In this document: positions 34,015 to 38,016 of the stretch, piece by piece
Position numbering within the stretch: position 1 is the stretch's first letter
Layout: the number at the start of each line of letters is the position of its first letter
DNA from: an uncultured delta proteobacterium
GTDB taxonomy: Bacteria > Myxococcota > Myxococcia > Myxococcales > 40CM-4-68-19
Direction of reading: 5' to 3'
DNA length: 64,000 nt
Assembly (NCBI GenBank): GCA_903911145.1
Contig: CAIWCD010000031.1
Coordinates: 62,001-126,000, forward strand
Position numbers and translations under genes: made by a program
Notes under the pieces: generated by a model
Database searches by the model: none
The model's input: only the letters and a program-made list of their open reading frames with translations
What the model was told of the DNA's origin: nothing

Positions 34015-34037
34015 GCGCGACGCGACAACCTCTGCAT

Positions 34038-34041
34038 GGAG
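34038..34041 (+). promoter_or_regulatory. Ribosome-binding site placing the fhs start at 34051
   Basis: GGAG at 34038-34041 lies 9 nt before ATG 34051. An earlier in-frame ATG at 34036 has no such site, so the shorter form is preferred. Confidence 0.55.
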
Positions 34042-34050
34042 AATATTCGG

Positions 34051-35724
34051 ATGAGCGAATATAAGCCGCGGCCGATCGCCGAGGTGGCCCGGGAGCTTGG
34101 TCTCGAGAACGAGCTCGAGCTGTACGGGCGCGGCAAGGGGAAGATCGAGCTCGGCGCTGCGCTGCACGAGAAGCGGGGCGCGGGGCGGCTCATCCTCGTG
34201 ACGGCGATCAACCCGACGCCTGCGGGCGAGGGCAAGACGACCACCTCGATCGCGCTGGCGATGGGCATGCGCCGCCTGGGGATGAACGCGGTGCTGGCGC
34301 TGCGCGAGCCGTCGCTGGGCCCGGTCTTTGGTGTCAAGGGCGGCGGGACGGGTGGCGGCAAGGCCTCGCTGGTGCCGACTGACGACATCAATCTGCACTT
34401 CACTGGCGACCTGCACGCGATCACCAGCGCGCACAATCTCCTCTCGGCGCTCGCGGACAACGCGGCCTACCACCGCGAACAGCTCGGCGAATTGGGCGTG
34501 CTCGATCCGCGGCGCATCTCGTGGCCTCGCGCGCTCGACATGAACGATCGCTTTCTGCGCAACGTCATCGTCGGCCTCGGGGGTGCAAGCCAGGGAACTC
34601 CGCGCGAGACCCGCTTCGACATCACCGCCGCGAGCGAGGTGATGGCGATCCTCGCGCTCTCTACCGACTACGCGGATCTCGAGTCGCGGCTCGGACGCAT
34701 CGTCATCGGGACGACCTACGAGGGAAAAACCGTGACGGCGCACGACGTGGGCGCGGCGGGCGCGATGACAGCCCTCCTGCGCGATGCACTCAAGCCGAAC
34801 CTCGTGCAGACGGCGGAAGGCGGCCCCGCGTTCGTGCACTGCGGACCGTTCGCGAACATCGCGCATGGCTGCAACAGCATTCTCGCGACGCGGCTGGCGA
34901 TGGCGACGGGCGACTTCGCGATCACCGAGGCCGGCTTCGGCTTCGATCTCGGCGGCGAGAAGTTTCTCGACATCAAGTGCCGCGCGGCGGGGATCTGGCC
35001 GCGTGCGATCGTGCTGGTGGCCACGCTGCGCGCGCTCAAGATGCACGGTGGCGCGCCGCTGAAGGAGGCCGCGAATGCGAACCCTCCTGCACTCAATGCG
35101 GGGCTCGCCCACCTCGAGAAGCATCTGGAGACGGCGCGAGGATTCGGCCTGCAGGCGATCGTCGCGATCAACGTCTTCCCGCAGGACACCGAGAGCGAAC
35201 TCGCTCTGGTCGCAGCTGCCGCCGCGAAGCTCGGTGTTCAGGTGGTGCGCTCGGAGGGATTTTCTCGAGGAGGCGAGGGTGCTCTCGAGCTCGCCCGCAT
35301 CGTCGCGGAGGTCGCCTGCGCCACCGATGCTGCGCCGCCCGTCGCTCGCTACACCTACGAACTCGCTGACGCGCCGGAAGAGAAGATCCGCAAGATCGCG
35401 CAGGCGATCTATGGCGCGCGCGACGTCGCGTTCACTGCCGCCGCGCAGAAGGACCTCGCACGCATTCGCGCGCTGGGCGCGGAGCAGCTGCCGATCTGCA
35501 TGGCCAAGACGCAGCTTTCCCTCACCGACGATCCCAAGCAGCCCGGCCGCCCCCGCGATTTCATCATCACGGTCCGCGAAGTCCGGCTGAGCGCCGGCGC
35601 GGGATTTCTCGTCGCGCTCACCGGCGACGTGATGACGATGCCCGGCCTGCCGAAAAACCCGGCCGCGCGCGGAGTCAAGCTGGGCGAGGACGGGAGCATT
35701 CGCGGGCTGATGCAGGGAGGGTAG
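34051..35724 (+). CDS. fhs: Formate-tetrahydrofolate ligase (10-formyl-THF synthetase)
   Basis: A 557-residue cytosolic enzyme joining formate to tetrahydrofolate with ATP. Motifs agree with the Moorella enzyme as recalled: the P-loop NPTPAGEGKTTTSIALAMG, LREPSLGPVFGVKGGG, DINLHFTGDLHAITSAHNLL, PFANIAHGCNSI, TEAGFGFDLGGEKF and the C-terminal TVREVRLSAGAGFLV. Full length for the family. It supplies one-carbon units for purines or allows formate use; no other folate gene is adjacent. The stop is 3 nt from the first 130-bp hairpin element. Confidence 0.97.
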   Translation: MSEYKPRPIAEVARELGLENELELYGRGKGKIELGAALHEKRGAGRLILVTAINPTPAGEGKTTTSIALAMGMRRLGMNAVLALREPSLGPVFGVKGGGTGGGKASLVPTDDINLHFTGDLHAITSAHNLLSALADNAAYHREQLGELGVLDPRRISWPRALDMNDRFLRNVIVGLGGASQGTPRETRFDITAASEVMAILALSTDYADLESRLGRIVIGTTYEGKTVTAHDVGAAGAMTALLRDALKPNLVQTAEGGPAFVHCGPFANIAHGCNSILATRLAMATGDFAITEAGFGFDLGGEKFLDIKCRAAGIWPRAIVLVATLRALKMHGGAPLKEAANANPPALNAGLAHLEKHLETARGFGLQAIVAINVFPQDTESELALVAAAAAKLGVQVVRSEGFSRGGEGALELARIVAEVACATDAAPPVARYTYELADAPEEKIRKIAQAIYGARDVAFTAAAQKDLARIRALGAEQLPICMAKTQLSLTDDPKQPGRPRDFIITVREVRLSAGAGFLVALTGDVMTMPGLPKNPAARGVKLGEDGSIRGLMQGG

Positions 35725-35727
35725 AGC

Positions 35728-35857
35728 GCCGCGAGGTGGCGAGGGCTGCGTCCGTGCTCAAACATGCATGCGCGGCAGACGCAGAGAGTGCCGAGTTCGG
35801 AGCTTGATAAGGCCGCTCCTGAACTGCGCGCGGCCGCAGCCCTCGCCACCTCGCGGC
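35728..35857 (-). repeat. 130-bp hairpin-ended element, copy A
   Basis: Perfect 23-bp inverted repeats (35728-35750 and 35835-35857) close an 84-nt interior. Read on the minus strand, the interior matches copy B: a conserved 24-nt block at 35811-35834, which can fold as GGCCGC/GCGGCC, and an 18-nt block at 35752-35769 (ATGCATGTTTGAGCACGG on the minus strand). About 40 nt between them differ. The element lies just after fhs and has no plausible ORF. Candidate structured RNA or mobile palindromic repeat. Confidence 0.8.
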
Positions 35858-35947
35858 TTGGACAAGACGAAAAGAAGCGCGCGATTTGTCACGGAGGCGC
35901 GTCGTGATGCTCGAGCGCGCTCCCTCTTTCGCTGTTGATCGGTCATA
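35858..35947. other. Spacer between the two hairpin elements
   Basis: 90 bp lie between copies A and B. I see no gene, clear promoter or terminator here, apart from an A-rich patch (GACGAAAAGAAG) soon after copy A. Confidence 0.4.
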
Positions 35948-36077
35948 GCCGCGAGGCATGGATGGCTGCCGCCGCGCGCAGTTCAGGAGCGGCCGCACCC
36001 AACTCCGCAGGGAGCACGTTCTGGGTCAGCCGCGGATGCATGTTTGAGCACGGCGGCAGCCATCCGTGCCTCGCGGC
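35948..36077 (+). repeat. 130-bp hairpin-ended element, copy B
   Basis: Inverted arms of 26 bp (35948-35973 and 36052-36077) with one G-T pair. It is exactly as long as copy A and lies in the opposite orientation. The conserved interior blocks are at 35971-35994 and 36036-36053. In the outer stem five base pairs differ from copy A, yet four stay Watson-Crick and the fifth becomes a T-G pair, so pairing is kept while sequence changes. It sits about 68 bp upstream of the C25-like gene, possibly in its leader. Confidence 0.8.
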
Positions 36078-36144: not shown

Positions 36145-38016
36145 ATGCGTTCATGCTTGGCGATCGCCACGCTCGTGTTCCTCGGTGTCCTTACGGCTTG
36201 CGGCACGACCAGCACGTTGCAGACGTGCGTGCCGGCTTGCGGAGTTGGCGACTATTGCGGGACCGATTTCGTCTGCCATCCGAACCAGGGGGCTGTCGAC
36301 GCGGGCTGCACGAGCGACTCGCAATGCGGGAACGAGGTCTGCCAAGCCTCGACCCGGAACTGCGTTCCTTCCGATTGCAGTCCGGCCTGTCCTTCATTTG
36401 AGACGTGCAGCAAGCGGACCTGCGAGCTCAATGCGGGCCGCTGCAACAGCGCAAGCGACTGCCCGAGCAACCTGCCGATTTGCGACGCGAGCAATACCTG
36501 CGTTGCGCCTCAGACCAATCAGCCCGCGACGCTCACCTATGCGGCGCTGATCGTGACCAATCAGGACTATCTGGCCGACTTCCAGCAGCTCGCGCAGCTG
36601 CACACGCTGACGGGCGTGCCCACCAAAGTTGTGACGGTGGAGTCGATCTGCGCGGCGGCGGGCGCGGGGGCCTGCAGCCAGAGCGATAAGTGCAACGACA
36701 CGCCGAAGGCCATCAAGGACTACCTGATCGCGCAGCACGCGCAGGGCATTACACAGGTCGTGCTTGGCGGCGGCGAGCAGCAGGTCCCGTCGCGCTGGAC
36801 CCACTCAATCTTCAACTATCTATCCATCCTCGGCTTCGATTACGACGAGCAGTTCTATAGCGACTATTACTATTCCGACGTTTCCGAATGGGATACCAAC
36901 CACGACTGCCTCTACGGCGAGCCGACCACCGATACCCCGACCTATCTGCCGACGCTTGGCGTGACGCGCGTTTCGGTCTCGTCGCACGCTGAGATCCAGA
37001 CCTATATCGGCAAGGCGCAGGCATATCTCACGGCATATGACACGACCCGCTTGAATAAAGCGCTCTTTCTCTCGAATGTCGCTGCGGAGCTGCAGGTCCC
37101 GCGCACGAGCATCATTATTCCGATCGACTCCGCGCTCTATTTCGAGGCACCGCAGCGCACGCTCTCGCTGATGCCGAGCACGTTTACCAACAGCAAGCTC
37201 TATTCGAATCTCGGCAGCTGGCCGGGGGCGCAGCCGCTGACGATCGAATCTGAGACGACGGCCTTCGAGGCTGGATACAACATCGCGATCCATTCAGGCC
37301 ACGGCGGCGAGGACGATATTACCGTCGAGCAGGATGGTACGAATGATTACACGGGCGAGATGGCCTATGCGCTGCATAACTCCCAATATCCGCTCCTCCT
37401 CTCCTGCGCGTGCGAGGCGGCCACGTTCGCCGATGGCGATGCCTGCGCAGGGCAGCAGTTCATTACCTCGCCGACGGGCGGTGGCATCGGATATCTCGGC
37501 AATTCGACCATTGGCCTGGGTATCGCGGGCGGTATGCAGATGCTCGATGGGTTCCTGCGCTATGCCTTCAGCAAGACCAATCCGCTGATCGGCGAGGCGC
37601 TGATCGCCGGGCACGCGAACCTGCCGCACCAGGACGGGATCAATATCCCGAATATCCCGATTATCGGCTCATACTATCTGTCCGTGATGGATCCCACCTC
37701 GTGGGTCTGGACGCAGAAGGCCGTGACCTACCTCGGCGATGGATTATTGCCGGTCTATACCAACGCGACGATGAGCCACGCGCCCAGCTTCACCGCGCAC
37801 CGCGCGACGCTGGGGAATTTTACGAGCGTGACCTTCACGCCCTCGGCAGCCGCGATGGGAACGCTCGCGGTTGAGCTGAATAACAATATCTATGAGCTGC
37901 CCATTACCAGCCAGACGCCCGTGACGCTGACGATCGCGGGGACGGCGACGACGCTGACCTATGGATTCTCGTCGGCGACGACGCTGTCGGCCTATCAGCA
38001 GATTACGCTTCCATAA
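36145..38016 (+). CDS. Gingipain-like (family C25) cysteine peptidase lipoprotein
   Basis: A 623-residue lipoprotein (lipobox LTAC, TTGGAG before the start). Residues 25-125 are a Cys-rich module with repeated CxSDxxC-type patterns (TSDSQCGNEVC, NSASDCPSNLPIC), common in myxobacterial surface proteins. The caspase-like C25 domain follows: YAALIVTNQDYLADFQQL, an aromatic Asp-rich stretch (FDYDEQFYSDYYYSD), then the catalytic dyad candidates IHSGHGGEDDI (His386, less likely His383) and LLLSCACEAATF (Cys421 or Cys423). A beta domain ends the protein, as in gingipains. It would cleave proteins outside the cell; specificity is not readable. Confidence 0.78.
   Translation: MRSCLAIATLVFLGVLTACGTTSTLQTCVPACGVGDYCGTDFVCHPNQGAVDAGCTSDSQCGNEVCQASTRNCVPSDCSPACPSFETCSKRTCELNAGRCNSASDCPSNLPICDASNTCVAPQTNQPATLTYAALIVTNQDYLADFQQLAQLHTLTGVPTKVVTVESICAAAGAGACSQSDKCNDTPKAIKDYLIAQHAQGITQVVLGGGEQQVPSRWTHSIFNYLSILGFDYDEQFYSDYYYSDVSEWDTNHDCLYGEPTTDTPTYLPTLGVTRVSVSSHAEIQTYIGKAQAYLTAYDTTRLNKALFLSNVAAELQVPRTSIIIPIDSALYFEAPQRTLSLMPSTFTNSKLYSNLGSWPGAQPLTIESETTAFEAGYNIAIHSGHGGEDDITVEQDGTNDYTGEMAYALHNSQYPLLLSCACEAATFADGDACAGQQFITSPTGGGIGYLGNSTIGLGIAGGMQMLDGFLRYAFSKTNPLIGEALIAGHANLPHQDGINIPNIPIIGSYYLSVMDPTSWVWTQKAVTYLGDGLLPVYTNATMSHAPSFTAHRATLGNFTSVTFTPSAAAMGTLAVELNNNIYELPITSQTPVTLTIAGTATTLTYGFSSATTLSAYQQITLP

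Follow-up and report, generated by a model that had tools for sequence, protein, structure and literature searches.

A dispersed family of hairpin elements with a conserved internal neck, probably mobile palindromes, has two inverted copies behind a formate--tetrahydrofolate ligase gene

The window analysed here, a 64-kb stretch of the host genome (G000; 5.3 Mb, 53 contigs), contains a 432-bp gap between plus-strand genes for formate--tetrahydrofolate ligase (FTHFS) and a C25-family peptidase. The gap holds two hairpins, copies A and B, which are 130 bp long each, mutually inverted and 90 bp apart. The features of the locus are as follows.

34036..35724, plus strand: upstream gene, formate--tetrahydrofolate ligase (PF01268, full length); its TAG stop lies 3 nt 5' of copy A
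35728..35857, plus strand: element copy A, locus L001, 130-bp hairpin (inverted-repeat analysis, folding, genome search)
35728..35753, plus strand: copy A outer arm 1, copy-specific sequence (alignment of copies)
35754..35831, plus strand: copy A core, GTGCTCAAACA ... AACTGCGCGC, neck and apical segment (pattern match G000:C31:97754-97831)
35832..35857, plus strand: copy A outer arm 2, reverse complement of arm 1 (alignment of copies)
35858..35877, plus strand: copy A 3' flank TTGGACAAGACGAAAAGAAG, similar to flank CTTGGACCGGACGAAAAG of other copies (flank comparison)
35923..35947, minus strand: copy B 3' flank TATGACCGATCAACAGCGAAAGAGG, with the motif of the copy A flank (flank comparison)
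35948..36077, minus strand: element copy B, locus L005, 130-bp hairpin in opposite orientation (inverted-repeat analysis, folding, genome search)
35948..35973, minus strand: copy B outer arm 2 (alignment of copies)
35974..36051, minus strand: copy B core, GTGCTCAAACA ... AACTGCGCGC (pattern match G000:C31:97974-98051)
36052..36077, minus strand: copy B outer arm 1 (alignment of copies)
36157..38016, plus strand: downstream gene for a C25-family peptidase (PF01364), with an uncertain start codon

An initial annotation had described two inverted copies of exactly this length and spacing, which coordinates and pairing confirm. It also reported five stem pairs that differ between the copies, with compensation at four and a T-G at the fifth, and this too is correct. 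It placed the copies in the only long non-coding stretch, which is wrong, since the window has other gaps of 386-921 bp. The arms of the window copies are 33 nt long and 91% complementary, the whole inverted pair spans 141 nt with 78% complementarity, and the 3' flank motif of copy A probably belongs to the element. Folding of both copies, as RNA and as single-stranded DNA, gave z-scores of -7.3 to -10.2 against 200 dinucleotide shuffles, none of which equalled the native sequence, and folding was better than in shuffles on either strand. The T-G pair, previously taken to favour a plus-strand RNA for copy B, is unusable for choosing a strand, because the copy B core reads on the minus strand, where this position is A.C, and because G-T is not favoured over other mismatches in 30 aligned copies.

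The initial annotation proposed looking for further copies in the host genome. A blastn search returned 39 matches. Thirty copies were used to build a covariance model, which identified 34 dispersed loci, 33 of them full length; two additional half-copies are decayed (a left half at G000:C46:49319-49367 and a right half at C14:145764-145798). A copy at C46:27305-27404 has an internal deletion, and its arms still pair. The elements are non-coding and approximately 80-180 bp long. Common to all copies is a neck, GTGCTCRRACA...AACTGCGCGC, beneath an apical segment that varies in length and sequence; its two strands, 5'-GTGCTCRRACA and 5'-AACTGCGCGC, hold fixed mismatches within the long hairpin, and the T-G and T.C positions are retained in nearly all copies. 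In an alignment of 30 host copies there is almost no variation in the neck and the inner parts, and the neck is kept across phyla. The outer arms (ca. 20-27 bp) are copy-specific, yet approximately 95% Watson-Crick paired. Copies differ by a mean pairwise distance of 0.06 in the core ends, as against 0.35 in the arms and 0.38 in the apical segment. The arms and 3' flank nevertheless have a consensus common to copies behind unrelated genes. No two host copies are near-identical, and recent movement within this genome is thus without support. It is virtually certain that these copies form one dispersed family sharing a universal neck.

One arm together with half a core is partly duplicated in tandem at L006 and L029 in the host genome and at L093, L127, L148, L160 and L165 in Coriobacteriia, the arm sequence being repeated each time, as slippage or a template switch inside the hairpin might produce. 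Separately, a 45-bp GC-rich sequence recurs about 73-120 nt from the start of host contigs C3, C16, C30, C43 and C44, and again at C53:3220-3264; its recurrence near contig ends points to an unassembled multi-copy element.

The position of the elements relative to genes was analysed for 29 host copies, using a codon-usage gene model. A gene in the same orientation precedes 21 of the 29, and in 19 of these the stop codon lies 2-9 nt from the stem; the remaining two carry a partial left-arm duplicate between stop and stem. L016 probably lies 5 nt behind a TGA. None of the 29 copies is located between divergent genes (P about 0.0002 against an expectation of one in four). The upstream genes, which include those for FTHFS, Rho, MreB, IF-1 and RecN, have normal C-termini and are thus left untruncated by the elements. 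The adjoining stops show a modest enrichment of TAG (16/22 versus 36/77 in the background, P about 0.012). In-frame insertion into coding sequence, the trait of Rickettsia-type palindromic elements, was seen in none of the called host genes; three provisional calls come from other genomes.

A sense-oriented hairpin placed directly behind stop codons, and never between divergent genes, is what would be expected of a structured RNA of mRNA 3' ends, such as a terminator, a 3'-end protector or a protein-binding hairpin, whose folding is selected and whose sites are gained and lost fast. The invariant neck amid variable paired stems and the very stable fold also fit such an RNA. Against it, the stem is not followed by a U-tract and no terminator was called on the element, and no Rfam 15 family matched the window or 19 homologous loci at gathering threshold. 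Weak Rfam matches to miRNA models (E from 0.0004, far below gathering scores) were set aside as generic long-hairpin matches.

The sites themselves were compared with those of relatives. In the congener G001, the element is missing behind the stop at 16 of 16 orthologues of the upstream genes, the region being only partly readable at two of these sites, which are no more than 100 nt from a contig end. The convergent gap between the genes for IF-1 and a GAF-domain protein holds two elements in the host; in G001 this gap is short and contains a plain hairpin. When the joined flanks of nine copies from Adlercreutzia hattorii were searched in that genus, five loci could be aligned, and the element was missing from all 20 congeneric sequences at these loci, with both flanks aligning; the empty sites are approximately 80% identical, too diverged to define exact ends or a target-site duplication. 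Absence at orthologous sites indicates insertions and not inherited 3' UTR structures, and we regard it as very likely that the copies are insertions; gain rather than loss is the simplest reading. The absence at all 16 sites read in the congener counts against the RNA reading. A conserved transcribed RNA is possible, though the sites are not inherited.

Relatives in other genomes were sought with the neck pattern GTGCTCRRACA-N51..81-AACTGCGCGCG. It matched at least 95 stretches in the genome collection; with congener loci included and wider spacing allowed, at least 75 matches at at least 69 loci have paired arms. Among the matches listed, carriers with paired arms are Myxococcota or 'Deltaproteobacteria' MAGs, Omnitrophota and Coriobacteriia, the last comprising A. 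hattorii (complete genome), other Coriobacteriaceae, Atopobiaceae and Eggerthellaceae. The minimum core length is 31 nt. The other matches, whose arms do not pair, appear to be random; they include sequences from Streptomyces, Pseudomonas and Burkholderia relatives. Viral contigs gave a single match, with unmatched arms. With the exact-neck pattern, carriers amounted to 2 of 195 genomes in the phylum, both of one genus, and to 3 of 150 in one Coriobacteriia order (G147, G148 and G244, with 11, 13 and 1 copies); these counts are minima, because exact necks and a single spacing range were required. The reversed-pattern control gave no match in either genome set. That nearly all relatives are without the element is a further point against an RNA function.

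The congener G001, apparently the MAG SZAS-2 (sequence is common to L043 and L097), has its own subfamily with different arms (CTGGGGGAGGGGTCC) and a single copy, L197, of the type found across phyla. Widely spaced pairs of neck halves (1.4 and 2.2 kb) in one Omnitrophota MAG were considered as a possible autonomous form carrying a gene between the halves; they look like neighbouring copies. A GTCCGG-like motif flanks the core on the right in the host and on the left in A. hattorii, which would fit an inversion of the core inside the palindrome. At A. hattorii L141, as at window positions 35722-35728, the element lies directly behind a formate--tetrahydrofolate ligase gene; this recurrence in two phyla is possibly a coincidence.

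Arm complementarity is maintained despite extensive divergence. Across a 37-pair consensus, 164 cells were changed on both sides, compared with 42.7 in shuffles, and 96.5% of cells pair. One-sided changes are rare in the variable outer arms, most of them being located at the two inner pairs that adjoin the neck. Counted copy by copy, the stems contain 755 Watson-Crick pairs, 7 G-T pairs and 25 other mismatches; the G-T share of mismatched pairs (22%) is within the 17-33% expected if G-T were tolerated no better than other mismatches. Where the inner arms of two copies are similar, double transversions are more frequent than double transitions (317 versus 132; for single changes in the apical loop, the comparison set, transversions and transitions number 421 and 250; all are pairwise, non-independent counts). 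The predominance of double transversions argues against a route through G-U intermediates, which would yield mostly double transitions. Finally, the distance between copies in their arms does not correlate with that in the apical segment (r = 0.02): L001 and L002 have common arms and differ in the loop, while L001 and L003 have near-identical cores and apical loops and unrelated arms. The earlier view that compensated changes signal selection on folding is therefore unsupported, and both the unfavoured G-T pairs and the transversions weigh against the RNA reading, which we consider unlikely overall.

Template switching during replication can create, repair and maintain perfect stems (PMC8794818) and is described as homogenising the arms of inverted repeats (PMC8604942). 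Such switching between the arms fits the compensated changes better than RNA selection does, and mirrored copying accounts for two-sided changes, unfavoured G-T and the transversion excess alike. We consider it somewhat more probable than otherwise that templated copying is what keeps the arms complementary. The uncorrelated arm and apical distances suggest that core exchange between copies, or arm rewriting, would also be needed. Since the T-G and T.C positions persist, the neck either escapes correction or is selected.

The same lack of correlation, and the L001/L003 pair, could be explained if the core alone were mobile and inserted into the tip of pre-existing palindromes behind genes, the arms being the target. 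This is quite improbable: the window holds no hairpin of 17 bp or more besides copies A and B, core-less outer arms are no commoner than the reversed-pattern control, the consensus of arm and 3' flank spans unrelated genes, and on inspection no such palindrome stands at the orthologous sites read in the congener.

A mobilising enzyme was searched for in the host and in other carriers. The initial annotation had suggested a RAYT transposase, and REP or REPIN sequences moved by a RAYT (Y1 HUH) enzyme since lost from the host would occupy the same genomic niche, adjoining the upstream ORF at its 3' end (PMC3733652); Y1_Tnp is moreover present in 13 of the 17 carrier genomes searched, a frequency taken from carriers alone. 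However, PF01797 has no match in the host, the genome with most copies, the element lies beside none of approximately 20 Y1 loci examined in other carriers, and a GTAG or CGTC tag is not consistent. A resident Y1_Tnp/RAYT mobiliser was accordingly rejected, and a former one appears doubtful. Three carriers (G152, G158 and G159) have 15 to 31 Y1_Tnp (RAYT-like) genes each, and the element flanks none of those examined. Reverse transcriptase was likewise rejected (RVT_1 in 10/17 carriers versus 6/15 non-carriers, and none in the congener G001). The neighbourhoods of 69 loci revealed no conserved ORF in or beside the elements and no common protein family, and these searches found no transposase for the element.

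Taken together, the data are probably best explained by a new family of non-autonomous, REP/MITE-like mobile palindromes whose movement depends on an enzyme acting in trans. Of the candidates named in the initial annotation, a REPIN- or MITE-like mobile palindrome is supported by the 34 scattered copies, the non-orthologous positions and the patchy cross-phylum spread; the link to RAYT is not. For a mobile palindrome, the neck would be the probable site at which the mobilising protein recognises folded single-stranded DNA or a cruciform, and most host copies would have inserted in sense, 2-9 nt past intact stop codons. The enzyme would act in trans and may be lost from the host, as the divergence among all its copies suggests. 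Template switching would then copy one arm onto the other, so that every mutation is mirrored and the arms stay complementary. Settled copies would leave mRNAs with a highly stable hairpin at the 3' end, as putative bidirectional terminators or 3'-end protectors. A point against mobility is that the cores are near-invariant while the apical loops are ca. 38% diverged, which could also mean selection on each copy in place. The full scenario, namely enzyme-driven, oriented insertion beside stops in at least three phyla, recognition of the mismatched neck, and arms rewritten on moving by arm-to-arm copying (complementarity being inherited and sequence not), is tentative and, taken whole, not likely to hold in every part.

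The family adds a mobile hairpin that crosses phyla and is conserved in an internal loop and not at its ends. It also carries a warning: strong stem covariation, usually taken to prove a functional RNA, can arise from inverted arms copying each other. Missing G-U intermediates and an excess of double transversions are simple tests applicable to other covariation-based RNA calls. The patchy occurrence of carriers alongside non-carrier congeners makes a search for the mobilising enzyme tractable.

Among the open-access papers covered by our search none prints the core sequence, the only matches being unrelated primers. REPs lie mostly behind genes or between convergent ones, close to the 3' ends of upstream ORFs; the GTAG type is ascribed to RAYT mobilisation, and the CGTC type is without a dedicated transposase (PMC3733652). 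Our element resembles REPs and REPINs in being extragenic, dispersed, palindromic and near ORF 3' ends, and never between divergent genes. It differs in its longer hairpin, in conserving an internal neck rather than the ends, in its copy-specific arms, and in having neither a consistent GTAG/CGTC tag nor a RAYT gene in the host; GTAG occurs in a minority of host copies, where its TAG is usually the host stop, and GACG at the opposite end in few. Like MITEs, the element is short, non-coding, multi-copy and missing from orthologous sites of relatives. MITE copies, however, share terminal inverted repeats, whereas the arms here differ in nearly every copy, and no parent IS was seen in the genomes analysed. 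ERIC/RU-1 (127 bp) and RU-2 (168 bp) are likewise short, non-coding, palindromic and multi-copy, of similar length. Mitochondrial double-hairpin elements are mobile, GC-rich hairpins with compensated stem changes between copies, both points of likeness to our element; they differ in being organellar. Integron attC sites have variable, structure-conserved stems near gene ends and fold as single-stranded DNA. Their conserved boxes are at the outer ends and they stand in cassette arrays, while our element is conserved internally and dispersed.
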